From NCBI GenBank assembly GCA_016218975.1, contig JACRCO010000029.1:1-64000 (forward strand): a DNA stretch of 64,000 nt, given 5' to 3'. The notes beneath the pieces are model-generated. The model saw only the letters and a list, made by a program, of their open reading frames with translations, had not been told where the DNA came from and made no database searches. Of this stretch, positions 3,177-48,872 are shown in pieces (within the stretch, counting starts at the first letter, position 1; every line of letters begins with the position of its first letter). Origin of the DNA: Deltaproteobacteria bacterium (GTDB lineage Bacteria > Desulfobacterota > Deferrimicrobia > Deferrimicrobiales > Deferrimicrobiaceae). Both the position numbers and the translations under genes were made by a program.

Positions 3177-3202
3177 AAACGAAATCGTTCCACGGAGGCA
3201 AC

Positions 3203-4764: not shown

Positions 4765-4787
4765 AGGATGGGAACGGAGGATTTCGC

Positions 4788-4814
4788 TTAAGGGAATTCA
4801 TGATTTACCGATAA
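4788..4814 (+). promoter_or_regulatory. Candidate sigma-28 promoter before the chemotaxis block
   Basis: TTAA (4788-4791), a 15-base spacer, then ACCGATAA (4807-4814). This matches the sigma-28 consensus TAAA-N15-GCCGATAA at 10 of 12 defined positions. The expected start of transcription, about 4820, lies almost on the GTG at 4823, which favours the downstream ATG at 4838 for transcripts made from here. Confidence 0.55.
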
Positions 4815-4822
4815 GGAAGGGG

Positions 4823-7842: not shown

Positions 7843-7854
7843 CGGAGAACGCCG

Positions 7855-9672: not shown

Positions 9673-9706
9673 GACGTACCGGGCAACCGGTTGCGAGGGG
9701 GAGGAC

Positions 9707-10900: not shown

Positions 10901-10919
10901 AGGGTGGAGGGCTTACGTC

Positions 10920-12545: not shown

Positions 12546-12548
12546 AGG

Positions 12549-13601: not shown

Positions 13602-13642
13602 TCGTAACATTACGGAATCCGTCGGGATCCCGGCAGGTCGGC

Positions 13643-13670
13643 TAAAGAACGCCGTGCGCGGCGCCGATAA
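13643..13670 (+). promoter_or_regulatory. Candidate sigma-28 promoter before cheW
   Basis: TAAA (13643-13646), a 16-base spacer, then a perfect GCCGATAA (13663-13670), 33 bases before the cheW ATG. Both boxes match the consensus fully; the spacer is one base longer than usual. Confidence 0.7.
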
Positions 13671-13703
13671 GACAGGGGCTGCAAAACGTTCAGGGGGAGG
13701 GCC

Positions 13704-17346: not shown

Positions 17347-17362
17347 TGGCATCATGCTTGCT
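17347..17362 (+). promoter_or_regulatory. Candidate sigma-54 (-24/-12) promoter of the flgF operon
   Basis: TGGCATCATGCTTGCT: GG at 17348-17349 and GC at 17360-17361 with exactly ten bases between, matching TGGCAC-N5-TTGC(A/T) except for one base. It follows the terminator and precedes flgF. Transcription would begin near 17373, two bases before the flgF ATG. Confidence 0.65.
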
Positions 17363-27867: not shown

Positions 27868-29157
27868 ATGGCCAGGTACAAGGTATACGATTACGGGTCC
27901 CGGAAAGCCTTTCCGGCCGACAAGCTCTCCGAAGGGACCTACCTGCCGTTCGACGTCTTCGTGTGCGAAGAGGATATCTTTTCCCGTCTCTTCAAGGAGG
28001 GGGACAGGTTCGGCCCGGAGGAAAAGGCCGAGCTCTGGCGGCGGGGCGCAACAGAGGTTTACGTAGACCTGAAGGACGCGCGGGCGCTGGAATTATACCT
28101 CCAGCGGACGGCCGAGATCGTAATACCGGACAGGGACAACGCCGAGGTCGTCCGGGAGTACGTCGAACACAAGCAGCAGTACTACCAGGTCGACCGGTCG
28201 TTCCTTAAACCCGGCGTGCGCGTCGGTTTCGGCGTCTACCTGCTCCACAACCTTCACATGGTTCCGCTCGTGGAAGCGACCGAAAGCGCTCCAGGTGTCG
28301 TTCCGGAAGGGATCTCGGCCTCTCCGGGAGAGGTCGTCATACGGAATTCCGACATCCCGCTGTACCAGAAGTTCCTGGACAGCCTGATCGAGGCGCCGCC
28401 CGGCGCCGCGGCCCCGTCGGAAGACTTGAGCAAGGTGCGCGCCGTCGTTATCAAAGAGAAATCGAAGACGATAATCAAGGGGCTGCTGGAGGACCCGCGG
28501 AGCGGGGAAAACATAAAGGATGCGGTGGACGTCGTCACCCGGATGACCGACTGCATCGTGTCCAACAGGGACGTGATCTACGACCTGGTCTCCTTGAGCA
28601 GCTACGACCATTACACCTACACGCACTCGGTCAACGTCACCGTCATTTCCGTAGGGATCGGTATCGCCTACGGCATCGGGCGGGCCGCCGCCGAAATCCT
28701 CGGGCTCGGCGCCCTTCTCCACGATGTCGGCAAGAGCAGGATCTCGCCCGCGATCCTGAACAAGCCGGGGAAGTTCACTCCGGAGGAGTACAACATCATC
28801 AAGGGACATGTCATTGAAGGGGAGAAGATCCTGCGGGAGCACAAGGCGATCCACCCCGACGCTTACTACGCCGTCCTCCAGCACCACGAGCGGCTCGGGG
28901 GAACGGGATACCCTTACGGCGTCTCGGAAGAATCCATCCGCCTGTTCGGCCGGATATGCGCGATAGCCGACTGCTACGACGCGATGACGACCCACCGCCC
29001 GTACCAGCGCGCCGCATCGCCCTACCAGGCCTTGCTCCAGATCACGAAGGAGACCCGGAACTACGACCGCGATCTCCTTAAGGCGTTCATCCGCATGCTC
29101 GGGAAGATCAAGGGGCCGGAAGTTCTCCGCGCGGAAGGGGCGGCCGCCCCCGTTTAG
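27868..29157 (+). CDS. HD-GYP domain phosphodiesterase-type protein
   Basis: 429 aa. A variable N-terminal region of the DUF3391 type (about residues 1-160) is followed by an HD-GYP domain with LLHDVGKSRISPAILNKPGKFT..E..IIKGHV..G..IL and LQHHERLGGTGYPYG, so both the HD and GYP motifs are intact. Such enzymes hydrolyse cyclic di-GMP and so favour motility. It follows the FlhB-like gene by 9 bases, and its last 4 bases overlap the convergent methyltransferase gene. Confidence 0.93.
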   Translation: MARYKVYDYGSRKAFPADKLSEGTYLPFDVFVCEEDIFSRLFKEGDRFGPEEKAELWRRGATEVYVDLKDARALELYLQRTAEIVIPDRDNAEVVREYVEHKQQYYQVDRSFLKPGVRVGFGVYLLHNLHMVPLVEATESAPGVVPEGISASPGEVVIRNSDIPLYQKFLDSLIEAPPGAAAPSEDLSKVRAVVIKEKSKTIIKGLLEDPRSGENIKDAVDVVTRMTDCIVSNRDVIYDLVSLSSYDHYTYTHSVNVTVISVGIGIAYGIGRAAAEILGLGALLHDVGKSRISPAILNKPGKFTPEEYNIIKGHVIEGEKILREHKAIHPDAYYAVLQHHERLGGTGYPYGVSEESIRLFGRICAIADCYDAMTTHRPYQRAASPYQALLQITKETRNYDRDLLKAFIRMLGKIKGPEVLRAEGAAAPV

Positions 29158-29957
29158 CCCATCATTTTCAGGTATTGCCTTGCCGATGCGTCGTCGGGAA
29201 ACTCTTCCGCGATACGTTTCAGCCTCAGTATGGCGTCTTCCGTGCGGCCGCCTTTCAGCAGCAGGTCTACCAGGAGAAACGCGACCGCCTTGTCCTTCGG
29301 CACCAGCGGCAACGAGGCTTCCAGGAAAATCAACGCCTCGTGCGTTCCCTTTTCCGATGCAAGCGTATCCGCTTGTTCGATTATCCGATGGCGCAGGTAA
29401 TCGTCCTTGTCGACAAGGAGGCAACCATACTCTCCGGGTCCGGGAAACCCGAAGATTTCCCGTTGGGGCGTGAAAAGTTCGAACTCGCCGATATTCCAGA
29501 ACGACCGGTGTTCTTCATGCGGGTTGCCGTGGACGGTCCCCTGGGTCCATCGATCGCCCAACGGAATGTTGATCATTATCGTCCGGTTCGAGTGGGCGGC
29601 ACACTTGTCGAGGAACCGCCACGCTTTCCGCTTCTCGAAATGTTCGAGGACGTCGCCGAGGATCAATAGATCGTACTTGCCTGCCCCGTCGATCGTTTCA
29701 TAGGCATCTCCGATCAGGATGTCGTCATAAAGCGCTCTTTGATGATCCTGGATGTAGCCGGGGAATACTTCTATCCCGTCCAGCCTGATTTTCCAGTCTT
29801 TTCTCATGCACCTTTCACCCATCATGACGTCGAGGATGTCACGGACGATAAAACCCATCTTGCCGTTGCCGACCCCGATGTCGAGAACGGAATCGGGCAT
29901 CGTCGCCTGCAGGTACCGCGCAACCGTCGGGATATGGCAGTAAGTGCTCGTGGGCAT
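29154..29957 (-). CDS. SAM-dependent methyltransferase with C-terminal TPR-like tail
   Basis: 267 aa. Motif I is VLDIGVGNGKMGF (about residues 24-36), followed by an acidic IRLDGIEVF and YDLLILGDVLEHF, giving a class I methyltransferase. The last 65 residues (ALIFLEASLPLVPKDKAVAFLLVDLLLKGGRTEDAILRLKRIAEEFPDD) look like a TPR-type helical repeat. It is the last gene of the minus-strand modification operon, 2 bases after the radical SAM gene, with RBS CGAGGT. Its acceptor is probably a sugar or protein of the flagellar coat; this is inferred from position. Confidence 0.85.
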   Translation of the reverse strand: MPTSTYCHIPTVARYLQATMPDSVLDIGVGNGKMGFIVRDILDVMMGERCMRKDWKIRLDGIEVFPGYIQDHQRALYDDILIGDAYETIDGAGKYDLLILGDVLEHFEKRKAWRFLDKCAAHSNRTIMINIPLGDRWTQGTVHGNPHEEHRSFWNIGEFELFTPQREIFGFPGPGEYGCLLVDKDDYLRHRIIEQADTLASEKGTHEALIFLEASLPLVPKDKAVAFLLVDLLLKGGRTEDAILRLKRIAEEFPDDASARQYLKMMG

Positions 29958-29959
29958 TG

Positions 29960-32900
29960 TTATACCTCGTGCCGCGAAAGCCGTACGAAAGCCTCACGCA
30001 TGGTATTTCGGAATTCCCTTTCGAATTCCGTCATGCATTCCGACCATTGGGGGTATACGCTGCGGGCTGCTCCCCACGCACCGGAAAGATTTCCTTTCGA
30101 TGCCAGTTCCGCGGTTTCGCGGGAAATCGAGACCAGCGAATCCTGCAGCCGGCCGATCGCCCGGGGAATGCCGTTTTCTTCGGCGAGAAGTTCCGTGAAG
30201 TTCCGAAGCCGGGGAGTAAGTTCCTTGAATGCCCTTATGGCATTTACCGATTTGCGGAGCAGATCGGGAAGTGCCTTCCGAAGATCAGGTCCCGGGACGG
30301 CACCGTTTCCTCCCAGACCTGAAATGATTCCGTCCATGTGGCGATGCAACTCCTCGATTTGCGATACGGTCAGGTCGTAGTTCGGCACGTCGAATCCTCT
30401 TTCGCAAAGCCAATTCCCTGAGGCGTCTACAGGCGGAGCCAGACCGAACTTGACGCAATGCGAGCATGTCGGGGGTACTTGTCCGGCGATATGGGCTCGG
30501 CGGATACGTCGATACTCCGGTCCGTTCCAGATGTCCTCGATCGGACGGTTTTGCACATTCCCCAGGGTTAACGCCGGATCGTCGGATGCGAAGCAGCACG
30601 GCTTGCATTCCCCGTCGACGCGCACGTACAACGTCCGGAATACCAGGGGACAAGGCTTTGCCAGTTTCAGGCCCGTCTCGGTCCAGTCATGCCCTGTCGC
30701 AGGCGTTGGAGCGGCCACGTTGTTGCCGGTCCTTAAGTACGCGTCCAGGTTGATACGGACTCCGAGCCGCTCGCCGAGGGACCGTACCTCGCCGAGGATC
30801 GGCTCGTCGCGGTCCGGATCGTAATCGATCCGTTCCTGTTGAAATTCCGGCAAGGCGTCGTAGGTCACCAGTGGTTTGAAATCGATCGCTTCCACTCCGC
30901 TCTCGAATGCGAATTCGACCAGTTGCGGTAGTCCGTGCAGCGTTGATCGGGTAATGATCGTGTTGAACGACACACTGGGGTTGCCGTTTCCGGATCGCAG
31001 TTTTTCCTCGCGAAGGCATATGAGATTCTTTCGGAGTTTATCGAAATTCGCTCTTTCGTACAGGTGCTCGTACAATGCCGGATCCGCGGTGCTGACCGAT
31101 ACCGTCATGCGGGGCGCGCCGGAACGGACAAGGCGGGGAATACGCTCTTCGTCGAGCAACTGCCCGTTCGTGAAAAAATCCACGTCCGCTCCATGGGCCG
31201 CGGCGGCTTCGGCCATGTCCAGCAGGTGCCTGTTGAGAAGCGGCTCCCCGAAACCGTGAAGCGATATGGATGCGATGCCGGGAAGCCACGGAAGGACCGA
31301 ACGCATGATTTCGGCCGGCATGATGGCCGATTTTCCCCTTGGGCGAGGGGTTTTCGTGCGGATCGCGCAGAACTTGCAGTTGAGATTGCATGCATTGGCG
31401 CTTTCCAGGAAGATCTCTATAGGGCTGTTCAGTACGATTTCTCTTTTTTCGATCCGTGAGAGGACGTATCGGGCATAGTTTGCGCGTTTAGACCTGCGAA
31501 GGAGGCCGTTGGCAGGAACAGCGGAAAGCCGGAACGGCTCCTGATCGGACGGAGGCCCCGGAATGACGTGCTCATGGGACCGGATCGGCCGTTCATCTCC
31601 GACGTCAAGCGCCGCGAGATTTCCGCACCCGGTCTTTGCGGCGGCGATGAATCCTTCGAGCCCGTCGTTGACGTCGTTGTGGAGGCGGCAGAGTTTTTTC
31701 GAAATGCACTCCCTGCAACCGGGCAGGTAATCACGGGCCTGAACGCGATCACGGAGTTTTCGGAGCGCGGGGCTTTGCCACATCTCCGTCAACGTTGAAT
31801 CCCGCAGATTTCCGATTTTCAGGTCATCTCCGCACAGGGCTTCCCCCGGCCCACATGGATAAACATCGCCGATCGGAGATACGAACAGGGTCGAGAACGG
31901 GTGAAGACAGATGCCGTCATGCGGATCCTGCGAACGATGGCTTCCCAGGAAAGAATGATCCTCCCATTCCATCGGCAGGCTCCGGATGCTTTCCCGCAGG
32001 TTCTTCAGGATATTTCGGTGCTCCTCCGTGCATTCCGTCGGTCGCGGTGCATCCGGCCGTATATCCAGAATCCCTTTCATGTTGACGGCGGGCTTGACCG
32101 ACACCCCGGCGAACCCGAATGGAGCGATCCGGCCGACCAGTCCGGGCAGGTCGACGATATTGTCATCCATGACCACGAAGTTCAGGAACAACTGCGGCCA
32201 GGACACTCCGTTATCGAACCGTTCCCGGTGAAAGCCTTCGATAGTCCGCCACAGTTTTTCCCACTTAGCCGGCTTGTGGTACTGCTCATACCGATCCCGG
32301 GTCCCGCCGGAAACGCTGAAGACGAATCTTGAAAGGCGAGCCTGGACCAGGTCGTGGATGAGGGAATCCGGCACGTTGGCGGCGTTGGAATTGACCCATG
32401 TGAATACGCCACGGCCGGCGGCTCTCCGCACGATTTCCACGAGACCCGGATGAAGTGTGGGTTCTCCGACGCCGACCGTATACAGCATCGCCGCGGCGGT
32501 AAGGAGTTCGTCGATCGCCGGTATGTGCTCGGCGGGAAGATCGACCTTGTCCCGGCCATGTTTTTCCACATGTTCCGCCAGCTCCAGCTTGTGGGAGCAC
32601 ATGGGGCAGTCGAGGTTGCATCGCTTCGTGAGCTCGACGTAGATTTCGATCGGTTTATTTTCGACTTCTTTTGCCGGATTGCCTTTCTTTAGGTCTCGGA
32701 GCAGGCGTCCGAAAGACGATATATTCGAAAGCTTCTCCTGGAGAAGTGCTTCCGGCGCCCCGGGTGCCGGTTCGGCTTTCGATTTCCCGGCTTCCGTGCA
32801 CGCTTTCTCCGTGGACCATGCCTCGGGCAGGTCGGGAAGTTTGCCTGGTGAAAGAGCCAGGTATTCGTGGGATATTTTGAGATAGTGGTCGAAGATGGAT

Positions 32901-34345
32901 GCATATTCCTTCCGGACTTCCGGATCGGATAGATCGGGAACGTTCCGGGCCGTCTGCGCGGCATGACGTCCCTGGTCGAACAGCTTTGAATCCAGAAGAC
33001 CGGAAAGGATGCTGCGTCGCAGGATTCGGATCCTGGGCGTGTTTTTTCCGTCAGTCGAGACCCAATCCTCGGCTTCCAGCGAGGCAAGCCCCCATCGCCC
33101 CGGCTCCTTGTAGAGCGGCGAGTTGGGGCGGGGAGTGAGGATGGGAAGCCCGAGGTTCGTGAATTTATCGATATTCTTGGACAGGAAAAAGAGGCTTTCC
33201 GCAAATTCCCTCGGTCCTTCGCCGGGGAAGCCGACGATCATATTTCCATACTGGGCGATCCCCGCTTTGTGCGCGTCGCAAATCACCCTGTCGGCCAATG
33301 CCGGGTCATACCGCTTGCGCATGGCCTTTAGCACGGCGGCCGATCCGCTTTCGAGACCCCAGCACAGTTCGACGCATCCCGCACGGCGCATCTTCCGGAG
33401 CAGGTCGATGCTCATTTCCTTCCGGATGTAGGCCATGCCTCCCCAGGTGAACTCGAGTTTCCGCTCGAGGATGATATCGCAAAGACGATCGAGGACATCG
33501 ATCCGGCCGTTGATCAGCGAATCGTTGAAATTGATGTGGGGAGTGGATCCGCAGGCCGCGAGAGCCGGAAGAAGGCTTCCGATCTGATCCGCCATCCAAT
33601 CCGCGGAGTGCGTCCGGAAACGGCCGAAATTGGGACTTTCGTTGCAATATGCGCAGCGGTTGATGCACCCCCGGCTGATCATGAGGATCGCGCGGTTCGG
33701 GAGCGTGTATTTCGAAAGGCAGGAAGGGTCGATCCCGACAGGAGCAAGATCATCCAGCTCCGATGGCACGGGCGGATTTCCGTTATCGCGAATCTTATCG
33801 CCGTCCCACGTGAAGAAACCGGGCATATCCGGCGGCACACGTCCGTGCTCGGAAATCGCCCGGACGATGTGCGGAAGCGCGATTTCTCCTTCTCCAGGGC
33901 ACAAGGCGTCCACAACCCCGGGAATCATATGGCGCGTTCCCCACTCGGAATGGAAGCAATCGGAACCCCCCGCAAGGAATGGAACGGACGGAAGGGCCTT
34001 CCTCAACTGGCGGGCGAACAGGTCCGAGACAAACCTCGCTCCGGAGTTGATGGACAGGGCGACAATCTCGGGCCGCCACGCGGCGATCCGCTCCGCCTGA
34101 TCTTCGAAAAACCGCCGTTGGTCCTTCCAGAACCGGTCGGCTGTTTCCTGCGATTCCCAAAAGACCGAATGCTCGTCTTTCCACCATGCCCTGTATTCCT
34201 CGGAGACGGACCGGTATGCCTCGATATTGAGATCGGATAGTCCGACGGAGTGGCCGGCGCGCAGAAGCTGGGCTTCGAGGGTCAGCAGGGCATAGTTTGG
34301 AGCCCAGTTCGCCCAGGCGGGGCAGGCGATCAGCGCGACTTTCAA
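29960..34345 (-). CDS. Giant three-module radical SAM protein with B12-binding-like N-terminus
   Basis: 1461 aa in one uninterrupted frame with three separate CxxxCxxC [4Fe-4S]-SAM motifs. Module 1 (about 1-500): cobalamin-binding-like Rossmann start (NYALLTLEAQLLRAGHSV, without the DxHxxG ligand) and CINRCAYC at 227-234. Module 2 (about 560-900): CNLDCPMC at 576-583, then SPASM-like cysteines at 813, 831, 877, 880 and 886. Module 3 (about 970-1320): CNLNCKFC at 986-993, then cysteines at 1232, 1247, 1250, 1251, 1294 and 1297. A helical tail of about 140 residues follows. The start is TTG with RBS GAGAGGA. The reaction and substrate are unknown; its operon partners suggest flagellin-glycan modification. 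Confidence 0.9.
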   Translation of the reverse strand: MKVALIACPAWANWAPNYALLTLEAQLLRAGHSVGLSDLNIEAYRSVSEEYRAWWKDEHSVFWESQETADRFWKDQRRFFEDQAERIAAWRPEIVALSINSGARFVSDLFARQLRKALPSVPFLAGGSDCFHSEWGTRHMIPGVVDALCPGEGEIALPHIVRAISEHGRVPPDMPGFFTWDGDKIRDNGNPPVPSELDDLAPVGIDPSCLSKYTLPNRAILMISRGCINRCAYCNESPNFGRFRTHSADWMADQIGSLLPALAACGSTPHINFNDSLINGRIDVLDRLCDIILERKLEFTWGGMAYIRKEMSIDLLRKMRRAGCVELCWGLESGSAAVLKAMRKRYDPALADRVICDAHKAGIAQYGNMIVGFPGEGPREFAESLFFLSKNIDKFTNLGLPILTPRPNSPLYKEPGRWGLASLEAEDWVSTDGKNTPRIRILRRSILSGLLDSKLFDQGRHAAQTARNVPDLSDPEVRKEYASIFDHYLKISHEYLALSPGKLPDLPEAWSTEKACTEAGKSKAEPAPGAPEALLQEKLSNISSFGRLLRDLKKGNPAKEVENKPIEIYVELTKRCNLDCPMCSHKLELAEHVEKHGRDKVDLPAEHIPAIDELLTAAAMLYTVGVGEPTLHPGLVEIVRRAAGRGVFTWVNSNAANVPDSLIHDLVQARLSRFVFSVSGGTRDRYEQYHKPAKWEKLWRTIEGFHRERFDNGVSWPQLFLNFVVMDDNIVDLPGLVGRIAPFGFAGVSVKPAVNMKGILDIRPDAPRPTECTEEHRNILKNLRESIRSLPMEWEDHSFLGSHRSQDPHDGICLHPFSTLFVSPIGDVYPCGPGEALCGDDLKIGNLRDSTLTEMWQSPALRKLRDRVQARDYLPGCRECISKKLCRLHNDVNDGLEGFIAAAKTGCGNLAALDVGDERPIRSHEHVIPGPPSDQEPFRLSAVPANGLLRRSKRANYARYVLSRIEKREIVLNSPIEIFLESANACNLNCKFCAIRTKTPRPRGKSAIMPAEIMRSVLPWLPGIASISLHGFGEPLLNRHLLDMAEAAAAHGADVDFFTNGQLLDEERIPRLVRSGAPRMTVSVSTADPALYEHLYERANFDKLRKNLICLREEKLRSGNGNPSVSFNTIITRSTLHGLPQLVEFAFESGVEAIDFKPLVTYDALPEFQQERIDYDPDRDEPILGEVRSLGERLGVRINLDAYLRTGNNVAAPTPATGHDWTETGLKLAKPCPLVFRTLYVRVDGECKPCCFASDDPALTLGNVQNRPIEDIWNGPEYRRIRRAHIAGQVPPTCSHCVKFGLAPPVDASGNWLCERGFDVPNYDLTVSQIEELHRHMDGIISGLGGNGAVPGPDLRKALPDLLRKSVNAIRAFKELTPRLRNFTELLAEENGIPRAIGRLQDSLVSISRETAELASKGNLSGAWGAARSVYPQWSECMTEFEREFRNTMREAFVRLSRHEV

Positions 34346-37622: not shown

Positions 37623-38678
37623 CTACGCTCCCGTACCGGGAAGCAGCTGCCCCATCCTCGAAATTCTCTCCTGCATCGTTGTCAGCATTTTCAGCCACAC
37701 GATGTTGTAATACTCGGCGTTCGAGAAATCGGTGTTTTTTCCCTGTTCGAAGCGCTGCCACAGGTCCAGCACGGTCTGCGTGATGCCGCGGGGAGGAGTG
37801 TAACCGAAGGTTTCACGAAACCGGTTCCCCGACACTTGATAGCTGCGTGTAGGAACCCCGTCCATGTACCGGACGTCCACTTCGATCTGCTTTTTGTCTC
37901 TCAGCACGTACTTGATCCAGTGGGCGAGCTCCAGAACCCGATAATTCTTGTGAAGCACGTTGAACGCTTTCCCGCGCACTATGCCTTCGGGCAATTCCAA
38001 TGCGTTGATGTACGCTTCCGCGGCATCGTTGATGTCGAGCAGCGGACGCCACATTTCCCCGCCACCGAAAACGATCAGTCGCCCGGTCTCCCAGGCGGTT
38101 TTAGAGAAGGTGTTGACCACCAGGTCGTACCGCATGCGGGGAGAGAAGCCGAAGACGGTCCCCTTTCTGAGCGCCACCGGGCAGAATTCCGGGCCCGCGA
38201 GATCGCGAAGGAGTTCCTCGGCGAGTTTCTTGGAAACGGAGTAAGGGGCCGTCGGGCTGATTTCGGATTCCTCGTTCAGCATTCCGTCATAAGGGTTGAG
38301 GCTGTAATAGATGGAACAACTCGACGCGAGAACGAAACGCCGGACGCCTCGGCGAATGCAACCCTCGGCCACGTTTCGGGTTCCTTCGACGTTGATAAGG
38401 CGGCAGGCGTCGGGCGCGAATTCCGCGGTAGGGTCGTTGCTCAACGCCGCCAGGTGGATAACCTTGTCGATATCTTCCAGCACCCCGTCGTCGAAATCGC
38501 CGACGTCACCCTGGACGATCTCGACGTCTTTCGCCACGGCATCGAGGCCGTCTGCGCCGAAAAGGAGTTTGTCGAATACGCGTACCTTGTATCCCCGTTT
38601 CAGCAACAGCGGGACAAGCGTGCATCCGATGTAGCCGGCACCGCCCGTAACAAGGACGAACCTTCCGTTCCTGCTCAT
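37623..38678 (-). CDS. NAD-dependent nucleotide-sugar epimerase/dehydratase (extended SDR)
   Basis: 351 aa. The Rossmann motif GGAGYIG is near residues 12-18, with the catalytic motif YSVSK (Y..K) and the serine stretch LASSCSIYY upstream of it. Extended SDRs of this kind convert nucleotide-activated sugars; the exact substrate cannot be told. A strong RBS (AGGAGGGG) precedes the ATG. It lies 12 bases after the rfbD-like gene and 6 before the methyltransferase-glycosyltransferase gene. Confidence 0.9.
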   Translation of the reverse strand: MSRNGRFVLVTGGAGYIGCTLVPLLLKRGYKVRVFDKLLFGADGLDAVAKDVEIVQGDVGDFDDGVLEDIDKVIHLAALSNDPTAEFAPDACRLINVEGTRNVAEGCIRRGVRRFVLASSCSIYYSLNPYDGMLNEESEISPTAPYSVSKKLAEELLRDLAGPEFCPVALRKGTVFGFSPRMRYDLVVNTFSKTAWETGRLIVFGGGEMWRPLLDINDAAEAYINALELPEGIVRGKAFNVLHKNYRVLELAHWIKYVLRDKKQIEVDVRYMDGVPTRSYQVSGNRFRETFGYTPPRGITQTVLDLWQRFEQGKNTDFSNAEYYNIVWLKMLTTMQERISRMGQLLPGTGA

Positions 38679-38690
38679 GAACCCCTCCTG

Positions 38691-39554
38691 TCAGTCACGT
38701 CGTCGCATGTAATCTTCGATGGCTTCCTTCAACGGCCGCATTACGGAACGGCCGCTCTTCCCGATTTTCCGGATCGCGAGACGCGAGTCCGCCGGCCGGC
38801 GGAAAAGCGCGGGGGAAGCGCCGCTCGAAACGGGAGTCACCTTGACCTCCTCGAGGCCGGCGGCGGAGAAGATCATTCGTGCGAACTCCATCCACGAACA
38901 ACCCGGGGGAGAGACCACGTGGTATACGCCGGGCGCCGGGGGATCGGTTGACAAGGTCGCAAGCTGGCGGGCCAGGTCCTTCGAATAGGTCGGGCAGCAG
39001 AACACATCGGAGACGACGTCCACTTTTCCTCGCGTGCGCCCAAGATGAAGCATGGTTTCGACGAAGTTCCGGCCGCCCGGTTTCGCCCGGCACGGGTTGC
39101 TCCCGAACAGGCCCGTCGTTCGCAGGATGTACGTCTGTTCCCACTCGGCCAGCGCCAGATATTCGCCCGCCAGTTTCGTGGCGCCGTATATCATCATCGG
39201 CCCGGTCAGGTCGTCTTCCTCGTACGGTTCCCCCTTGCGTCCGTCGAACACATAATCGGTGCTGATATGGAAAAAACCGGCCCCGTTCGCCCGGCAGGCG
39301 CGGGCGACGTAACGGGGGCCCAGCGTGTTGACCTCGAAGGCCGTGTGCGGGCGCTTTTCGCAAGTGGGCACGTCATGGAACGCCGACAGGTTTATAACGA
39401 CGTCGGGTTTGATCCGGGAGATTCTTTCGCTCACCCGGGTTTCGTCGGTGATATCGAGATCGGCGTGAGGAGGCGCGTCAGCGACGAGGGGGCCGAGCTC
39501 GGCCAAGACATCTTTGCCAAGCTGTCCCTCGGCTCCGATGACAAGGACGCGCAT
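38691..39554 (-). CDS. dTDP-4-dehydrorhamnose reductase-like protein (RfbD family)
   Basis: 287 aa NAD(P)-dependent sugar reductase. N-terminal MRVLVIGAEGQLGKDV (GxxGQLG is typical for RfbD), then PDVVINLSAFHDVPTCE, HISTDYVFDGRKGEPYEEDD and the catalytic YGATK..GE. It probably reduces a 4-keto-deoxysugar nucleotide. No rfbA or rfbB is present in the window, so the exact product is open. It sits 3 bases after the rfbC-like gene. Confidence 0.9.
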   Translation of the reverse strand: MRVLVIGAEGQLGKDVLAELGPLVADAPPHADLDITDETRVSERISRIKPDVVINLSAFHDVPTCEKRPHTAFEVNTLGPRYVARACRANGAGFFHISTDYVFDGRKGEPYEEDDLTGPMMIYGATKLAGEYLALAEWEQTYILRTTGLFGSNPCRAKPGGRNFVETMLHLGRTRGKVDVVSDVFCCPTYSKDLARQLATLSTDPPAPGVYHVVSPPGCSWMEFARMIFSAAGLEEVKVTPVSSGASPALFRRPADSRLAIRKIGKSGRSVMRPLKEAIEDYMRRRD

Positions 39555-39557
39555 CGA

Positions 39558-40148
39558 CTATATCCGCTCGGTCCGGAAGACGTCGGACAAGGGATCGGAA
39601 AGCCATTCATCGAGTGTTTTCGCTCTCTGGTCCCTTTCGGATACGATCGGGTCCGATACGGGCCACTCGATTCCTATTCGAGGATCGTTCCAGAGGACGT
39701 TCGATTCCGTGTTGCCGTTATACGTGCCGGTGCATAGATACTGGACTTCGGCGAAGTCCGATGTGACGGCGAAGCCGCGGGCGCATCCGGCGGGCGCCCA
39801 GAACAGGACCGGTTCTTGATAGTGGAGTTCACGTCCCACCCACTTGCCCAGCGTGGGAGAATCCTTTCTGATATCCACCGCCACGAGGAAGGCCGATCCG
39901 GCGGTCACGCGCATGAGTTTGCCCATCGGAGGGTCCCATTGGAAATGAAGACCGCGCACCACGTTTTTCACCGACCCCGAATGATTGAGCTGGACAAATC
40001 GGGTCGGCAGTTTTTCCGCCGCCCAGACGTCCTCCCGGAAGGATTCGAGGAAAAATCCACGCGAATCGCGAAATAGCTCCGGATGGACGAAAAAGACGCC
40101 CTCGATATCGGTCGACTCGACGCGGATTTTCACCTGGTTCTCCTCCAT
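39558..40148 (-). CDS. dTDP-4-dehydrorhamnose 3,5-epimerase-like protein (RfbC family)
   Basis: 196 aa cupin-type epimerase. Family marks: DSRGFFLESFRED, RFVQLNHSGSVKNVVRGLHFQ (catalytic H in RGLHFQ), and a later FWAPAGCARGFAVTSDFAEVQYLCT. The ATG at 40148 is chosen because a TTG at 40181 lies inside the sigma-54-type promoter. It is the first gene of the six-gene minus-strand operon. Confidence 0.9.
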   Translation of the reverse strand: MEENQVKIRVESTDIEGVFFVHPELFRDSRGFFLESFREDVWAAEKLPTRFVQLNHSGSVKNVVRGLHFQWDPPMGKLMRVTAGSAFLVAVDIRKDSPTLGKWVGRELHYQEPVLFWAPAGCARGFAVTSDFAEVQYLCTGTYNGNTESNVLWNDPRIGIEWPVSDPIVSERDQRAKTLDEWLSDPLSDVFRTERI

Positions 40149-40180
40149 ATCGTTGCCGTACCACGGACAATCATCTTGCA

Positions 40181-40196
40181 AGCAAGGTGCATGCCT
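40181..40196 (-). promoter_or_regulatory. Candidate sigma-54 promoter of the minus-strand modification operon
   Basis: Read on the minus strand: AGGCATGCACCTTGCT, with GG (plus 40194-40195) and GC (plus 40182-40183) exactly ten bases apart; it matches the TGGCA-N6-TTGCT form with one mismatch. Transcription would start near 40170, about 22 bases before the rfbC-like ATG. Confidence 0.65.
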
Positions 40197-40511: not shown

Positions 40512-41348
40512 ATGGCTCTTGTAATCAACACGAATATCGCGTCCTTGAGCGCCCAGAAAAACCTCGTAGCAAACACCTCGCTGCTTTCAACCTCAGTCCA
40601 GCGGCTTTCGTCCGGCCTCCGGATCAACAGCGCCAAGGACGACGCCTCCGGCCTGGCGGTGTCGGAAAAGTTGCGCGCGCAGGTCAAGAGCATCTCGGTA
40701 GCGATCAGGAATTCCCAGGACGGCGTTTCCCTGGCGCAGACGACTGAAGGCGGGCTCGTGGAAATCGGAAACATCCTTTCCCGTATGCGCGAGCTTGCAG
40801 AGCAGGCTGCGAACGGCACCGTCCAGGACCGTACGGCACTCGACAACGAATACACCCAGATGATCCAGGAAATCGACCGGATCGCGTTGACCACCGAGTT
40901 CAACGGCGTGAAACTCCTGAACGGGGATTCCAGCGCCACCGGCGTGAGCTTGCAGGTCGGGTTCCAGAACAGCGCAAACGACCGGATCGCGTTCTTCTCG
41001 GGGATCGGCGTGACGGGTTCGTCGACCCTCGGCCTGACGGGCACGTTCGGGAATATTTCGATCGTGGGCAACGCGCAATCCGCGCTGGCGCAGATCGACT
41101 CCGCCATCAACACCGTGGCCACGCGGCGCGGCACACTCGGCGCCGTAATGAACCGGCTCGAATCGACGATCGCGAACCTGCGCGTCGCGGCGGAGAACCT
41201 CGGAGCCGCGGAATCGGCGATCCGGGATGCCGACTTCGCATTCGAGACGTCACAGTTCACGAGGAACCAGATCCTCGTCCAGGCGGCCACCGCGATGGTC
41301 GCACAGGCCAACGTGTTGCCGCAGGCGGCTCTTCAACTCTTGAAGTAA
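40512..41348 (+). CDS. fliC: Flagellin FliC (compact)
   Basis: 278 aa filament subunit. N-terminal D0/D1 (ALVINTNIASLSAQKNL, VQRLSSGLRINSAKDDASGLAVSEKLRAQ, about residues 1-150) and C-terminal D1/D0 (LAQIDSAINTVATRRGTLGAVMNRLESTI to NVLPQAALQLLK, about 195-278) are complete, with only about 45 residues between, so the outer D2/D3 domains are missing. Residues about 140-190 are Ser/Thr/Gly-rich and could carry O-glycans. It has its own sigma-28 promoter and CsrA-type leader. Confidence 0.96.
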   Translation: MALVINTNIASLSAQKNLVANTSLLSTSVQRLSSGLRINSAKDDASGLAVSEKLRAQVKSISVAIRNSQDGVSLAQTTEGGLVEIGNILSRMRELAEQAANGTVQDRTALDNEYTQMIQEIDRIALTTEFNGVKLLNGDSSATGVSLQVGFQNSANDRIAFFSGIGVTGSSTLGLTGTFGNISIVGNAQSALAQIDSAINTVATRRGTLGAVMNRLESTIANLRVAAENLGAAESAIRDADFAFETSQFTRNQILVQAATAMVAQANVLPQAALQLLK

Positions 41349-41409: not shown

Positions 41410-41790
41410 ATGGACGTGAAAAACGACATCGGATCGCCGATATCGACGCCGGGAAATCCGGGAGGAGTCGCCCCCCCCGCCCCCGCCCGGGAAGACCATG
41501 CTCCGTCTCCCGCCTTGAAAGAGGCGGCGAAAGAAGCTCCGGAAGAAGGCGAGGTCAGGAAGATCGTGCGGGAGGCCCTGAAAATCAATCCTCTTCCGGA
41601 ACGGGAGCTTCGCATCGAGATCGCGAGCGACGTGAACATGGTAGTAGTCAAAGTCGTGGACAAGGAGAGCGGCGAAGTGGTTCGACAGATCCCGTTTGCC
41701 GAGACAGTCGCGAGCGCAAAGCGCATCAAGGAACGGTTGGATCAGATGGCCCGCGAGCAGCGCGGCCTCGCCGTGGATCGGGAGGTATAG
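41410..41790 (+). CDS. flaG: FlaG-family protein
   Basis: 126 aa. A Pro/Ala-rich N-terminus is followed by the conserved FlaG half (NPLPERELRIEIASDVNMVVVKVVDKESGEVVRQIPFAETVASAKRIKERLDQM). FlaG is found next to fliD in many bacteria and influences filament length; its mechanism is not settled. RBS CAGGGAATC. Its stop directly abuts the fliD GTG. Confidence 0.9.
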   Translation: MDVKNDIGSPISTPGNPGGVAPPAPAREDHAPSPALKEAAKEAPEEGEVRKIVREALKINPLPERELRIEIASDVNMVVVKVVDKESGEVVRQIPFAETVASAKRIKERLDQMAREQRGLAVDREV

Positions 41791-43125
41791 GTGGCCACGT
41801 TTTCGGTCGGCGGACTGTCGTCCGGGATCGACTACAACTCCATGATCGAACAGATCATGAAGCTCGAGCGGCAGCCGATCACTCGTCTGGAATCCAAGAA
41901 GGCGGATTATAACAAGAAGATCAGCGTCTACGGTGAGCTCTCCTCCAAGCTGGCCGCGCTGAAGACCGCCGCGAACGCGCTGAGGACCGCGTCGAGTTTC
42001 TATGCGAAGAACGCCTCGTCGAGCGACGATGCCGTTTTCACTTCCACGGCCGCCAGTTCCGCCGCCGTGGGCAATTATTCGATCAGTGTGACCACTCTCG
42101 CGCAGGCTCACCGGATCGCTTCCTCCCCCGTTGCGGCGGAGACGACCGTCGTCAGCTCCGCCACCGGTAATTTCAGTTTCACGGTCGGTGGAGGGGCGGC
42201 CACGACCGTCGTGGTTTCAACGGAAACGACCCTTGAAAATCTGCGGGATGCCATAAATGCGGAGGACGGTGACGCGGAGGCGAGCATCATTTACGACGGG
42301 AGCGGGTACCGGCTCGTCCTGACGAGCAAGGAATCGGGGGCATCCAACGGCATCGTCGTCACCGAGAACGTCAGTACGCTCGGGCTGCCGAGCGGGCCCG
42401 TGTCCGGCGGGACGACGCTGCAGGCGGCCCAGGACGCCGCATTCAGCATCGACACGTTTTCCATGACGCGGAGCTCCAACACGGTCGAGGACGCGATCGC
42501 CGGCGTCACGATCTCACTGAAAAAGGGAGGGACCGCCACCCTGTCGGTGACGAACGATACCGACGTCATACGGGAAAAGATCGACGCGCTGGTCGCCGCC
42601 TACAACGACGTCGTCTCACTCGTATCCACCAACGCCTATTACGACACGAATACGCGGAAAGGCGGTTCCCTCACAGGGGAATCGACTGCGCGTGACATCG
42701 TAACCGGCCTGCAAAGGATCGTGGGGACCCGCGTGTCCGGGCTTCCGGAGGGCTTGCGGGTGCTGGCGCAGATCGGCATCGAAACCGGCACGGACGGGAA
42801 GCTGACAGTCGACTCCACCGTGCTGAACGACAAGCTGACGACGGAACTGGCCGGGGTTTCGGACCTGTTCAACGCCGACGGCGGGCTGGCGGCCGAAATC
42901 TACGACTACGCGGACGAGGTGACGGATACGATCACCGGATCCATCACTTACCGAACCAAAGGTCTCGGCACGCTTGTGACCGGGATTTCGGACGACATTC
43001 TGGAGATAGAAGCCCGCCTGACAAAGGAAGAGGAAGAATTGAGGGCACGCTTCGCGAGGCTTGAAGCGCTCCTAAGCACGCTCACCTCGCAGACGGCGTT
43101 TCTCAGCAGTCTGTCCGTCGAATAG
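41791..43125 (+). CDS. fliD: Filament cap protein FliD (HAP2)
   Basis: 444 aa, starting at GTG immediately after flaG with RBS GGAGGT. The N-terminal FSVGGLSSGIDYNSMIEQIMKLERQPITRLESKKADYNKKISVYGELSSKL and the C-terminal YNDVVSLVSTNAYYD..KGGSLTGESTARDIVTGLQRIV .. LARFARLEALLSTLTSQTAFLSSL are typical. The middle part is Ser/Thr/Val-rich. It catalyses flagellin folding at the filament tip. Confidence 0.95.
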   Translation: MATFSVGGLSSGIDYNSMIEQIMKLERQPITRLESKKADYNKKISVYGELSSKLAALKTAANALRTASSFYAKNASSSDDAVFTSTAASSAAVGNYSISVTTLAQAHRIASSPVAAETTVVSSATGNFSFTVGGGAATTVVVSTETTLENLRDAINAEDGDAEASIIYDGSGYRLVLTSKESGASNGIVVTENVSTLGLPSGPVSGGTTLQAAQDAAFSIDTFSMTRSSNTVEDAIAGVTISLKKGGTATLSVTNDTDVIREKIDALVAAYNDVVSLVSTNAYYDTNTRKGGSLTGESTARDIVTGLQRIVGTRVSGLPEGLRVLAQIGIETGTDGKLTVDSTVLNDKLTTELAGVSDLFNADGGLAAEIYDYADEVTDTITGSITYRTKGLGTLVTGISDDILEIEARLTKEEEELRARFARLEALLSTLTSQTAFLSSLSVE

Positions 43126-43179
43126 CGGCGGAAGAATCAAAACGTTTATAGCAGGATAAAAGGGGGAAGGGAGAGAGAC

Positions 43180-43605
43180 ATGCAGCAGTACGATGCCTAC
43201 CGGAAGGCGACGATCGACACTTCGGACAACGTGAGGGTCGTTTCCCTTCTCTTCGACGGTGCGATGAATTTCCTGAAAATCGCGCGGATGAAAATGGAGG
43301 AGCGCGACATTCCGGGCAAGGGCATTTATATAGGGAAGGCAACCGCGATTGTCGGCGAACTGGCAAGTTCGCTGAACATGGAAGAAGGCGGAGAGATCGC
43401 CAGGAACCTCCGCCGTCTCTACGACTTCATACTCGACCGCCTTCTCCAGGCCAATCTGAAGAACGACGCGGCTGCGCTCGGCGAAGCCATAAATATTCTG
43501 GAGGTCCTCCGTGGTGCCTGGAAAGAGATGGAACGGATCCAGGTCGCGGCGCATGCGCCTCCTCCGAACAGGGCACGCCAGGCCGGAATGGCCGTCCAGG
43601 CATGA
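43180..43605 (+). CDS. fliS: Flagellin export chaperone FliS
   Basis: 141 aa helical chaperone. Family pattern: YRKATIDTSDNVRVVSLLFDGAMNFLKIARMKMEERDIPGKGIYIGKATAIVGELASSLNMEEGGEIARNLRRLYDFILDRLLQAN. It binds the C-terminal helix of flagellin. RBS AAGGGAG. Overlaps the next gene by 4 bases. Confidence 0.95.
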   Translation: MQQYDAYRKATIDTSDNVRVVSLLFDGAMNFLKIARMKMEERDIPGKGIYIGKATAIVGELASSLNMEEGGEIARNLRRLYDFILDRLLQANLKNDAAALGEAINILEVLRGAWKEMERIQVAAHAPPPNRARQAGMAVQA

Positions 43606-44025: not shown

Positions 44026-45297
44026 TCACAGGACGCAGGCGTCCACAGGTTGCCGGCCGGGCCGCCGGACATTCGTTCGTGACAGGACTTCCGTAAACAC
44101 ATCCCCAAGATTATTAACCGATTCCCGCGGATCGAACTGTTCTCTCATCGGCACGACGCGGATTTTCCCGGGGGAGATCCCCTCGCGGAGCAGCGAATCC
44201 CTCGCTCGATCCGACACGGCGACGTATGCGTCCACCTCCGGCAGTGAAAGCCTTTTCACCTTGTCGATATATTCCGCTTTCCCGGTCGGAACAAGATCGG
44301 TTTCCGCGGATAGCGCTACTACCCTGTTCCCGAATTTGAGCTTCGCTACAACGGCCTGAAGCGTGGAAACGCTGGACAGGTATTCGGTGAATACGATGTC
44401 CTTGTCGATCAGTTCCGCCTCCAGCCCCACCAGGTAGTCGGTGGAATCCTCGAGTTGCGGAAGCCGTTCGATCGGCATTTCAGTTTGCGATGCGCTTGTA
44501 TCCGCGGAGAGAAGGGTATAACCGGTGAATTCGAAAGTGTCGCTTAACGCGAGCAAACACGCCATTTCCGCCGGATCGAATCCGGCAGGCCTTATAACCG
44601 CTACTCGCGGCAGGCCGGAAGACGCCCGAACCGGATATGGAGGAACGCGCGGATTTACCCGTGACGAGAGGGGTCTTGGATAAACGTCATATTCCCTGTA
44701 AACAAGCTCCTCCGGTCTTGCGTACCCGCTTCCTTCGATTCCGGAATAATTTTCTCCTTTGCGCCAATAACGTTTCTTGTCCAGGAACCCGTAGTGGACG
44801 ATGTACAGATCGAGCTTTTCGACCCTTCCGTCGATGCCCGTCAGGTATTCGTGCACATGCCTTATCCACTTTACCCCCGGCAGGTTTCTCCAGATCCTAG
44901 GGGTCCATTCGAAATTGTCGGCCGCCCTGGAATAGTACAGTTCGTTGCCGACCAGGTTGCATTGTCGTATGGTGAATCCCGCTATACCTGGTTCCGCGGA
45001 AGACAGCACGCCCCTTATCTTCCTTTCGAACTCCTCCGAGTATGCCTCGTCCGAATCCAGGCGGATCACCCAGTCTCCGCTGCAGCGATCGAGGGAAATC
45101 TGCCGCTGGTTCCCGAAATGTCCTTCCCATGGATGTTCCACCAGGACGACCCTCGGGTCGGATTTCAGGATTTCCAGGGTTCGGTCGGTGCTTCCGCCGT
45201 CCACAACGACGATCTCGTCCGCGAAGGAGCAAGAGCTCAGAGCCCTTCCGATGTGCTTCTCTTCGTTCATGGCGATCATGGAAACGGAAATTTTCAT
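44026..45297 (-). CDS. Two-domain glycosyltransferase (GT2 plus GT4-like half)
   Basis: 423 aa. Residues about 1-215 are a family 2 glycosyltransferase of the lipopolysaccharide core type (ISVSMIAMNEEKHIGRALSSCSFADEIVVVDGGSTDRTLEI, acidic RLDSDEAYSEE, FEWTPRIWRN..VKWIRHVHEYL). Residues about 230-415 look like one Rossmann half of a GT4 enzyme (DAYVAVSDRARDSLLREGISPGKIRVVPM) without the usual nucleotide-binding EAFA.G.PV part. RBS AGGAGGCGGGAG. It reads convergently to fliT and has its own sigma-54-type promoter. Confidence 0.85.
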   Translation of the reverse strand: MKISVSMIAMNEEKHIGRALSSCSFADEIVVVDGGSTDRTLEILKSDPRVVLVEHPWEGHFGNQRQISLDRCSGDWVIRLDSDEAYSEEFERKIRGVLSSAEPGIAGFTIRQCNLVGNELYYSRAADNFEWTPRIWRNLPGVKWIRHVHEYLTGIDGRVEKLDLYIVHYGFLDKKRYWRKGENYSGIEGSGYARPEELVYREYDVYPRPLSSRVNPRVPPYPVRASSGLPRVAVIRPAGFDPAEMACLLALSDTFEFTGYTLLSADTSASQTEMPIERLPQLEDSTDYLVGLEAELIDKDIVFTEYLSSVSTLQAVVAKLKFGNRVVALSAETDLVPTGKAEYIDKVKRLSLPEVDAYVAVSDRARDSLLREGISPGKIRVVPMREQFDPRESVNNLGDVFTEVLSRTNVRRPGRQPVDACVL

Positions 45298-45380
45298 CGT
45301 TTATGCTCCCGCCTCCTAATTGCATGCACGCCTGGGTGAATCCATTTCGCAACGTCAAATCGACATGCAAAAATTTTTCG

Positions 45381-45396
45381 AGCAAGTCTCATGCCA
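45381..45396 (-). promoter_or_regulatory. Candidate sigma-54 promoter of the GT2 gene
   Basis: Minus-strand TGGCATGAGACTTGCT: GG (plus 45394-45395) and GC (plus 45382-45383) are ten bases apart; the only departure from TGGCAC-N5-TTGCT is T for C. Transcription would start near 45370, about 72 bases before the ATG at 45297. Confidence 0.7.
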
Positions 45397-45757
45397 CTCA
45401 AAATGCATGGAAATCTCATCAACCATCGCAGTGGATGAGATTGACATCGCCGACAGCGGGAAAGACATTTCATGTTTGTGTAAAAGGAGAAAAACGAAAG
45501 TATTTCAATGAAATGTTTGTCGTTCAAAGGGGGCACTGTAAATCCATAAACAAGTATTTATTGTCGGAAGAACAAAAAACAGGGTGAACCTTTGAAACCA
45601 AATTATGGCGCCATGAAGCGGTGAGAAAATTCAAAAGTTTGACGCACCGCATTATTTGGCGGTGGATTCGAAGAGTTCAAATCGGGCAATCGGGGAACAG
45701 GCCCGACAACTGGTTAACATCTTTACGAATTTATAACGAGAAGTTTCATCTGTTGCA

Positions 45758-45773
45758 TGGCAAGGGTTTTGCT
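45758..45773 (+). promoter_or_regulatory. Candidate sigma-54 promoter of the CgeB/GT4/GT9 glycosylation operon
   Basis: TGGCAAGGGTTTTGCT: GG at 45759-45760 and GC at 45771-45772 with ten bases between; one base off the consensus. Transcription would start near 45784, leaving a leader of about 58 bases before the GTG at 45842. Confidence 0.7.
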
Positions 45774-45841
45774 TGGGTACCCGAGAGGCTGGATATTATC
45801 GGGGATCATGGCGGTTCGGCGATCCGGGAAAGGCATCGATA

Positions 45842-47518
45842 GTGCCGTTGATATCGATCGAGGCATCGAAAACTGCCGCATACACGGTCAGCGTCCAGAG
45901 TGTTGACGGTTCACTGAAGCGTCTCCACAGCATTTACGATCCCGAAGGCGAAGCGCTGGAAATCGTAGATGCCTTCCTTTTCGACGGCAAGGGTATCATC
46001 GTGGTCCTGGGTCTCGGGCTCGGGTATCACGTGGCGGAGCTTCGGCGACGTTATCCGGAAGCAGACATCGTGGTCGTCGAGGGGATGCCGGAAATCCGCG
46101 ATTTCTGCATGACGTACGGAAAAGCCGCCGATCCGGCGGACCGCATCAGGCTCATCGTGGGGGCCTCCCCCTCCGAAGCCGTCGCGGAAATCTCGAAACA
46201 TCATCTGGAAACCGGATTGCCGCCGCTCGCCGTATTTGCGTTCCTTCCCGCCGTGAGCGCGTTCCCCGATTATTACGGCCCGATACGGAAGGCGCTCGAC
46301 CGGACGGTATCCTTCCGGCTCTGGGACAGGCTCCGTTATCGAAAGTTCAGGAGCGAGGCCCTGACGGTAGCCCTTTTCGACTTCGGCTACTTCCTCACCG
46401 AGGAGATCGCGCGGGCCGTCAAGGCCCTCGGGCACGATGTCGTGCGGGTGCCCGGAAAAAAGGGAGAGAGCTGCGGCGACATCCTGCATCGAGCCATAGA
46501 AACCGTCGCCGCGCACAGGCCGGACTTCGTCCTTACCGTAAATCACCTGGGCTTCGACGAGGAAGGGATACTCGCGAACCTGTTCCAGGCGATAGAGTTG
46601 CCGGCCGCGATCTGGTACGTTGACAGCCCCAATCTCACGGTCAAGGCCTTTGATAAGAACGTATCGCCGCTAAGCCATGTATTTCTATGGGATGAAGCCT
46701 ACGCCGAGGATATGAGATCCCTCGGCTTCAAGCATGTCTACCGGCTTCCGCTGGCCGCGGACGAAACGGTATTCATGCCGAGAAGGGTGTCTGCGTCCGA
46801 AAGAAAAAAGTTCGGAGCCGATATCGGGTTCGTCGGGAATTCGATGGTCGTTCCGGCGCGGGACCGGCTCCGGAAGGTGCCTGCGCATCTCCACGCCGCG
46901 GTGGAGCGGACGGCTCGGCGGCTCTGCTACTCGAGGGGATGCTCGTTCCGGCAAATCGCCGTTGAGGCCATGGAGCCCGGTGAATACGGGTCATTCGAGT
47001 CCCTCGCCGAATCGGAGCGGGCCGACGTCGAGGCGGCGGTCCTTTGGCGGGCGACGCTTCTCTACCGGCTTTCGTGCGTGCGGGAACTGGAGGGTCTCGA
47101 TGCGGTCATAAGGGGAGATGCAGGGTGGAAGAAGCTTCTGAACGGCGGCTTCCGGACAGGTCCTCCCATGAACTACTACGGGGAGACTCCGCTCTTCTAC
47201 AACGCCTGCGCAGTCAATTTCAACGCCACGAATGTGCAGATGGGGACTGCTGCAAACCAGAGGGTCTTCGATGTGCCGGCCTGCGGCGCGTTTCTCCTCA
47301 CCGACCGCCAGGAATCGATCGGAAATCTTTTCGAAGAAGGGAAAGAAGTCGTTGCCTACCGTGACCGCGGGGAAATCGCGGATCTGGCGAAGTTCTATCT
47401 CCGTAACGATGCGGCGCGAAAAGACATTGCCGGGCGGGGACGGCGGCGAGTGCTGGCGGAACATACATATCGGCACCGCATCCGGACGATCATCGATGCC
47501 TTGCGGGCTATAGGGTAA
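45842..47518 (+). CDS. CgeB-type glycosyltransferase (paralogue 1)
   Basis: 558 aa from GTG 45842, preceded by GGGAAAGG; an in-frame TTG at 45773 is part of the sigma-54 site and is rejected. The N-terminal LHSIYDPEGEA..VVLGLGLGYHVAELRRRYPEADIVVVEG resembles the Maf-type flagellin glycosylation proteins, and the C-terminal half (PAAIWYVDSP, HVFLWDEAYAEDMRSLGF, FNATNVQMGTAANQRVFDVPACGAFLLTDRQESIGNLFEEGKEVV) matches CgeB/DUF3880 glycosyltransferases. Paralogue of 48873-50639. First gene of a four-gene glycosylation run. Confidence 0.88.
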   Translation: MPLISIEASKTAAYTVSVQSVDGSLKRLHSIYDPEGEALEIVDAFLFDGKGIIVVLGLGLGYHVAELRRRYPEADIVVVEGMPEIRDFCMTYGKAADPADRIRLIVGASPSEAVAEISKHHLETGLPPLAVFAFLPAVSAFPDYYGPIRKALDRTVSFRLWDRLRYRKFRSEALTVALFDFGYFLTEEIARAVKALGHDVVRVPGKKGESCGDILHRAIETVAAHRPDFVLTVNHLGFDEEGILANLFQAIELPAAIWYVDSPNLTVKAFDKNVSPLSHVFLWDEAYAEDMRSLGFKHVYRLPLAADETVFMPRRVSASERKKFGADIGFVGNSMVVPARDRLRKVPAHLHAAVERTARRLCYSRGCSFRQIAVEAMEPGEYGSFESLAESERADVEAAVLWRATLLYRLSCVRELEGLDAVIRGDAGWKKLLNGGFRTGPPMNYYGETPLFYNACAVNFNATNVQMGTAANQRVFDVPACGAFLLTDRQESIGNLFEEGKEVVAYRDRGEIADLAKFYLRNDAARKDIAGRGRRRVLAEHTYRHRIRTIIDALRAIG

Positions 47519-47522
47519 ATAG

Positions 47523-48869: not shown

Positions 48870-48872
48870 CGG

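Follow-up and report, generated by a model that had tools for sequence, protein, structure and literature searches.

Three radical SAM units fused in one predicted protein of a sigma-54-type flagellar operon in a Deferrimicrobiaceae bacterium

Radical S-adenosylmethionine (radical SAM) enzymes do some of biology's hardest C-H chemistry. In a 64,000-nucleotide stretch of contig JACRCO010000029.1 from a bacterium of the Deferrimicrobiaceae (Desulfobacterota), hereafter the window, one gene encodes a 1461-residue protein, here called the triple enzyme. Sequence analysis confirmed that this single chain carries three complete radical SAM units with catalytic and auxiliary cysteines intact. It is a real and unusual fusion of already known modules; what is new is the joining of three of them and the proposed role in the flagellum. 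We lean, by a little, towards the view that it is one fused multi-step tailoring enzyme acting on the flagellar glycan; the evidence for flagellar use is good and that for a glycan substrate is moderate.

Read on the minus strand from 34345 to 29960, the frame comprises 1461 codons with zero internal stops, and its start codon is TTG, with GGAGAGG just 5' of it. An earlier note, made from the letters of this DNA alone, had placed three CxxxCxxC motifs at residues 227-234, 576-583 and 986-993, and they were found at exactly these positions (cysteines 227/231/234, 576/580/583 and 986/990/993), all motifs being intact. By Pfam the chain has three Radical_SAM domains (whole-protein E = 6.8e-43), each of which exceeds the family cut-off if scored individually, and two SPASM domains (4e-28); judged by these E-values, the matches are not due to chance. 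A B12-binding match, at 21.9 bits, stayed below its cut-off. The whole-chain Pfam scan returned nothing beyond these three domains and, specifically, no FliB cysteine-rich domain. A search of PHROGs gave nothing specific, and Rfam, tRNA and tandem-repeat scans gave nothing relevant.

Module 1 had been described as starting with a cobalamin-binding-like fold, and structure prediction bears this out. An AlphaFold2 model of residues 1-484 (predicted local distance difference test, pLDDT, 89.5; predicted template modelling score, pTM, 0.88) was matched by Foldseek to OxsB, MgmA, TsrM, CysS, TokK and AprD4, and these matches point to a cobalamin-type radical SAM unit. The weak Pfam score of the B12-binding-like domain is explained by an extra segment of about 40 residues, common to the subfamily of module 1, that splits the domain. 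As modelled, a B12-binding-like domain precedes the radical SAM core, the arrangement of cobalamin-dependent radical SAM enzymes, and the cysteines and subfamily motifs are kept in alignments with relatives. The predicted fold is the same, over the full length, as that of the class B cobalamin-dependent enzymes OxsB, MgmA, TsrM, CysS and TokK, but identity to them is only about 14-18%, and module 1 has its own insert and DSLING motif, is fused to two SPASM modules, and binds cobalamin only by prediction. Using the module-1 family profile, the best sequence match in the Protein Data Bank (PDB) was AprD4, a radical SAM 1,2-diol dehydratase with an aminosugar substrate, to which module 1 alone gave a weak match (E = 0.005). 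Unlike the fused module 1, AprD4 is a single enzyme, of antibiotic biosynthesis; and since an enzyme of such similar structure dehydrates diols, the fold by itself does not decide whether module 1 uses cobalamin.

The SPASM-like cysteine clusters reported earlier for modules 2 and 3 correspond to the two Pfam SPASM matches. When both modules are aligned with their relatives, core cysteines, GEP motif and SPASM cysteines prove conserved, among them C258/C276/C322/C325 in module 2 and their counterparts in module 3. Both modules are thus predicted to be of SPASM type, with a SPASM domain and conserved cysteines after the core. For module 3, the nearest PDB sequence is BtrN, and the AlphaFold2 model has a core with pLDDT mostly >=90 followed by 156 C-terminal residues that are helical and uncertain. 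Foldseek placed the peptide enzyme SuiB at the top for this module, with DesII, SkfB, BlsE and other SPASM or sugar enzymes also matched; its top matches include three enzymes of sugars or sugar-like compounds, BtrN, DesII and BlsE. The two modules share core and auxiliary cysteines with the SPASM/twitch enzymes (PqqE, SkfB, SuiB and BtrN, and the sugar enzymes DesII and BlsE), but differ from them in being fused in series and in scoring below every curated family cut-off. As to an origin of modules 2 and 3 by internal duplication, a quick tree did not show them as sisters, and an approximately unbiased test did not reject such a relationship (p = 0.77).

More than one radical SAM domain per enzyme, each with its own radical and all serving one pathway, is known from FO synthase (FbiC; CofG/CofH) (PMC11917521). 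In this two-domain case neither domain is of the B12 or SPASM type, the product is a cofactor, and there is no link to flagella or glycans. The modules of the triple enzyme are, to judge from their sequences, of the B12 and SPASM types rather than a CofG plus CofH pair, and neither CofG nor CofH was among the NCBIfam matches listed for the chain or its modules.

The setting of the gene is flagellar. Six minus-strand genes, separated by gaps of 2 to 55 bases, form the operon in the order rmlC, rmlD, epimerase, methyltransferase-GT2-GT4 fusion, triple enzyme and methyltransferase-like gene with tetratricopeptide repeats (TPR) (Table 1). The sugar-nucleotide enzymes and the methyltransferase-GT2-GT4 fusion claimed for this operon were recovered, RmlC and RmlD above curated cut-offs and the fusion by its Pfam domains. 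The further methyltransferase claimed held in part: a motif and one weak PDB match make it methyltransferase-like, and its C-terminus is TPR. RmlC and RmlD make dTDP-L-rhamnose. Genes for RmlB (above cut-off) and an RmlA-type protein (below cut-off) lie together on contig C20 of the same genome, so the dTDP-rhamnose route is probably complete. With glycosyltransferase and sugar genes linked to flagellin, the region has the makings of a flagellin glycosylation island. Maf and rhamnose-based islands likewise group sugar genes and glycosyltransferases around flagellin, FliD and FliS; radical SAM tailoring, as proposed for the window operon, is not described for them in the literature searched.

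A sigma-54-type promoter of flagellar form had been proposed for this operon, and the case for it proved stronger than claimed. In a weighted sigma-54 scan, the top four sites of the window stood before GT423, the triple-enzyme operon, the rod/P-ring operon and GT581. The strict pattern GGCAN6TTGCT, which was chosen after the sites were seen and agrees with the textbook consensus, occurs four times in the 64 kb, at exactly these four places, where 0.16 are expected; no shuffle reached four. A GG-N10-GC promoter near the operon head marks this as a putative sigma-54-dependent flagellar operon. The listed start codons of rmlC (40181), GT581 (45773) and the first rod-type gene (17354) overlap strong sigma-54 sites. 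Because the TTG listed for rmlC overlaps the promoter, the true rmlC start must lie inside, and the true starts of all three genes are probably further in.

Flagellar and chemotaxis genes fill most of what remains of the window (FlhA, an FlhF-like SRP54-type GTPase, chemotaxis genes, FlgI, FlgK, FlgL, FliK and MotAB). Beside CheA, one 397-aa frame (9707-10900, plus strand) joins CheW and CheZ domains. Elsewhere in the genome, outside the main flagellar region, lies a second, very long flagellin-like frame of 679 aa with a large middle region (G000:C98, 7001-9037, minus strand).

Table 1. Coordinates in the window of the triple enzyme, its modules, its operon and the flagellar features around it.
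Feature	Positions	Strand	Basis
Triple radical SAM protein, 1461 aa (B12-like/radical SAM, radical SAM-SPASM, radical SAM-SPASM, helical tail)	29960..34345	-	Open reading frame and Pfam
Module 1, residues 1-450: cobalamin-binding-like fold with subfamily insert, radical SAM core; CINRCAYC at 227-234; DSLING motif	32996..34345	-	Pfam, AlphaFold2, Foldseek, alignments
Module 2, residues 555-890: radical SAM (CNLDCPMC, VGEPT) and SPASM cysteines	31676..32683	-	Pfam, alignment; nearest PDB sequence PqqE
Module 3, residues 966-1305: radical SAM (CNLNCKFC, FGEPL) and SPASM/twitch cysteines	30431..31450	-	Pfam, alignments, AlphaFold2, Foldseek
Helical C-terminal tail, residues 1306-1461	29963..30430	-	Low-confidence model, no relatives found
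RmlC, dTDP-4-dehydrorhamnose 3,5-epimerase	39558..40181	-	NCBIfam TIGR01221 above cut-off
RmlD, dTDP-4-dehydrorhamnose reductase	38691..39554	-	NCBIfam TIGR01214 above cut-off
NAD-dependent sugar epimerase/dehydratase (GalE-like SDR)	37623..38678	-	Pfam Epimerase
Methyltransferase-GT2-GT4 fusion, 1071 aa	34401..37616	-	Pfam
Methyltransferase-like N-terminus and C-terminal TPR, 267 aa, last gene of operon	29154..29957	-	VLDIGVGNG motif, Pfam TPR, weak PDB methyltransferase match
Sigma-54-type promoter AGGCATGCACCTTGCT, operon head	40181..40196	-	Second-best site in window
Flagellin	40512..41348	+	Pfam Flagellin_N/C; divergent from operon
FlaG, FliD, FliS	41410..43605	+	Pfam
Flagellar glycosyltransferase island: GT423 (-), GT581, GT448, GT588 (Maf-like N-terminus), GT9 (+)	44026..52360	both	Pfam; conserved in part of phylum
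Sigma-54-type site before GT423	45381..45396	-	Sigma-54 scan
Sigma-54-type site before GT581	45758..45773	+	Sigma-54 scan
Sigma-54-type site before flagellar rod/P-ring operon	17347..17362	+	Sigma-54 scan

Radical SAM genes recur in homologous flagellar islands of the phylum. With GT581 taken as the marker, such islands were found in 49 of 395 phylum genomes; 20 were fetched, and radical SAM genes are present in seven. A cobalamin-type radical SAM gene stands between FliS and GT581 in three genomes (G016, G022 and G011), a single radical SAM gene follows FliS in G063, and G294 has one within its island. In G184 the island holds five SPASM-type radical SAM genes, with a sixth further upstream. 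G082, a member of another family, has the order flgK-flgL-rmlC-epimerase-rmlD, a module-3-like radical SAM gene, GT581-GT423-GT588-GT9 and flagellin-FliD-FliS. In G011, of the same family as the source, a methyltransferase-TPR-GT2 gene and a radical SAM-SPASM gene form an operon divergent from flagellin, in the same place and on the same plan as in the window. The flagellated family members G004, G013 and G018, which lack a GT581 match, have no radical SAM gene near flagellin, and no flagellin was seen in three genomes of the same genus, two of them incomplete. On contig G184:C17 (L099, L219), at least six SPASM-type radical SAM genes lie upstream of a flagellar-type glycosyltransferase.

The closest relatives of module 1 are found in another kind of neighbourhood. 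Its subfamily, recognized by the insert and the DSLING motif, is rare, with four members in the 395 phylum genomes, the window included; in a profile search, scores dropped from >600 bits to about 240 bits after the subfamily, those four members having been in the search profile. Further relatives occur in a Woesearchaeota genome (L036) and on an IMG/VR contig (L144). With frames in these loci read stop to stop, all five relatives have a SPASM-type partner: in G193, G290 and L144 the two are directly adjacent, in G144 they are fused, and in L036 the partner lies about 1 kb upstream. Where their surroundings are readable, they lie in glycan clusters, mostly without flagellin; that of G193 encodes a flippase, GT2, GT4, GT9 and a rhamnosyl O-methyltransferase, and flagellin was not found there. 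The pair on the viral-classed contig L144 (IMGVR_UViG_3300036885_000127, 8884-11506, plus strand) consists of a SPASM radical SAM gene and, behind it, one of module-1 type; the latter was the one clear relative in a scan of viral contigs with module 1. Cobalamin-type radical SAM genes are also present on many other IMG/VR contigs. A plasmid scan with module 1 gave, among the matches listed, only ordinary single radical SAM proteins at <30% identity.

The earlier note considered three radical SAM modules in one chain unusual, and so they are, although such chains are not unique. Among 308 radical SAM frames of the loci examined, partly redundant and not a random sample, only two, from the window and G144, hold more than one radical SAM unit per chain, and no chain with three radical SAM domains was found in the open literature searched. 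Uniqueness of the triple chain was rejected on account of the unrelated G144 protein of 3616 aa (L080; G144:C2:1-20000, 2850-13697, plus strand), a megaenzyme that also has three units, one of the module-1 type beside one of the twitch type. It comprises a GT56-like domain, two B12/radical SAM units, a twitch-type radical SAM unit, GT4, WbsX, TPR arrays and GT2, and a 1689-aa frame next to it encodes further GT2, GT4 and TPR. Its radical SAM units run B12 type, twitch type, B12 type, an order that differs from that of the triple enzyme.

Cobalamin-type units mostly methylate carbon or rearrange, and SPASM units oxidise, epimerise or cross-link. In our model, RmlC and RmlD, the RmlA- and RmlB-type proteins encoded elsewhere in the genome and the epimerase would supply a rhamnose-type dTDP-6-deoxyhexose, and the methyltransferase-GT2-GT4 protein and neighbouring glycosyltransferases would build the glycan and methylate it. 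On the sugar the triple enzyme would act by radical C-H or C-C chemistry. Module 1 would contribute a cobalamin-type step, with C-methylation the probable one and an AprD4-like dehydration the alternative; modules 2 and 3, by means of auxiliary Fe-S clusters, would carry out redox, epimerisation or cross-link steps. Fusion would hold the steps together and fix their ratio, and sigma-54 control would time the operon with other flagellar genes. In this scheme we infer the glycan as substrate, the reaction types, the activity of every module and channelling. A bolder form of the model we offer tentatively, as the less probable outcome: a flagellum-dedicated radical "assembly line" in which three different radical SAM catalysts, fused in one chain, act in consecutive steps to give the flagellar glycan a sugar that is C-branched, C-methylated or deoxygenated, and which belongs to a wider class of radical SAM/glycosyltransferase megaenzymes, as yet undescribed, that includes the G144 chain.

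Several observations weigh against a fused enzyme for the flagellar glycan. The same triple order, looked for in related genomes, is absent: whole-chain homologues occur in none of 24 family or 395 phylum genomes, where only single-module matches were found, so the joint function rests on one genome. None of the three modules reaches the cut-off of any functional family in NCBIfam, which weakens any assignment of chemistry. Module 2 is divergent, and its function may have changed. In 13 of the 20 islands no radical SAM gene lies in the stretch read, and with 37 radical SAM matches in the 2.95 Mb of the host genome some co-location is expected. Scaled from that density, roughly four radical SAM genes would be expected in the 20 island stretches and eleven were seen; as radical SAM genes cluster, this excess is enrichment, not proof. 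The multistep radical modification of flagellin or its glycan proposed earlier is partly supported, by the three intact modules, the flagellar sigma-54 operon and the recurrence in islands, whereas the nearest module-1 relatives lie in clusters in which no flagellin was found.

One rival to a glycan substrate is modification of the flagellin polypeptide itself by backbone or side-chain C-methylation, cross-links or epimerisation, in the manner of FliB or of a maturase of ribosomally synthesized and post-translationally modified peptides (RiPPs). Peptides are common substrates of SPASM and cobalamin-type enzymes, the best NCBIfam score of module 1, though below cut-off, is for a RiPP C-methyltransferase subfamily, and the top fold match of module 3 is SuiB. 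FliB, a flagellin lysine methyltransferase, provides a precedent for oxygen-sensitive Fe-S, SAM-dependent flagellin modification (PMC8598068). It acts by N-methylation, has no classical radical SAM domain and shows no sequence relation to the triple enzyme; the open literature searched held no record of radical SAM tailoring enzymes of flagella, FliB alone coming near. Rhamnose genes head the operon, relatives of module 1 and of the SPASM modules recur in glycan clusters without flagellin, and Pfam finds no RRE/PqqD peptide-recognition domain in the chain, which, lacking also a curated family score, does not look like a RiPP maturase. Since the nearest relatives of module 1 occur as genes of their own or within glycan megaenzymes, and no flagellin was found in their clusters, a sugar is favoured over the flagellin polypeptide, and we regard the latter as unlikely and weaker than the glycan reading. 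We give a similarly low probability to an enzyme whose substrate, a nucleotide sugar or a lipid-linked precursor, is altered before transfer and is common to other surface glycans, so that the flagellar link of the enzyme would be mainly one of supply and regulation. RmlC and RmlD are indeed nucleotide-sugar enzymes, and relatives lie in general surface-glycan clusters next to genes for flippases and glycosyltransferases, but dedicated flagellar use is indicated by the sigma-54 site and by the location between FlgL/FliK and flagellin, and the flagellar cluster of G082 repeats the gene set.

Two further explanations concern the chain itself. The fusion could be partly decayed: one of the modules, with the divergent module 2 as the likeliest candidate, would be a non-catalytic scaffold, and the radical steps would number fewer than three. 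The branch of module 2 is longer than that of module 3, and module 2 lacks close relatives, yet its CX3CX2C, GEP and SPASM cysteines are retained, and we think such decay improbable. That separate genes were joined in one frame by the assembly is scarcely credible, even though the assembly has 100 contigs and the whole chain was found just once: 4.4 kb stay open in a single frame of even codon composition with linkers that show no break, and G144 carries a three-unit chain too, so such chains exist. Third-position GC stays at 0.59-0.76 throughout without a step at module borders, giving no hint of joined pieces, and an assembly or frame error was rejected, since neither composition nor frame shows a sign of one.

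The proposal that the triple enzyme tailors the flagellar glycan is testable without the source strain, given the recurrence in other genomes. If it is true, natural fusions of this kind would reveal which radical steps are compatible and could serve as a template for multi-step biocatalysts, and flagella would bear unusual, radical-made sugars, possibly altering their recognition by hosts, phages and immune receptors.

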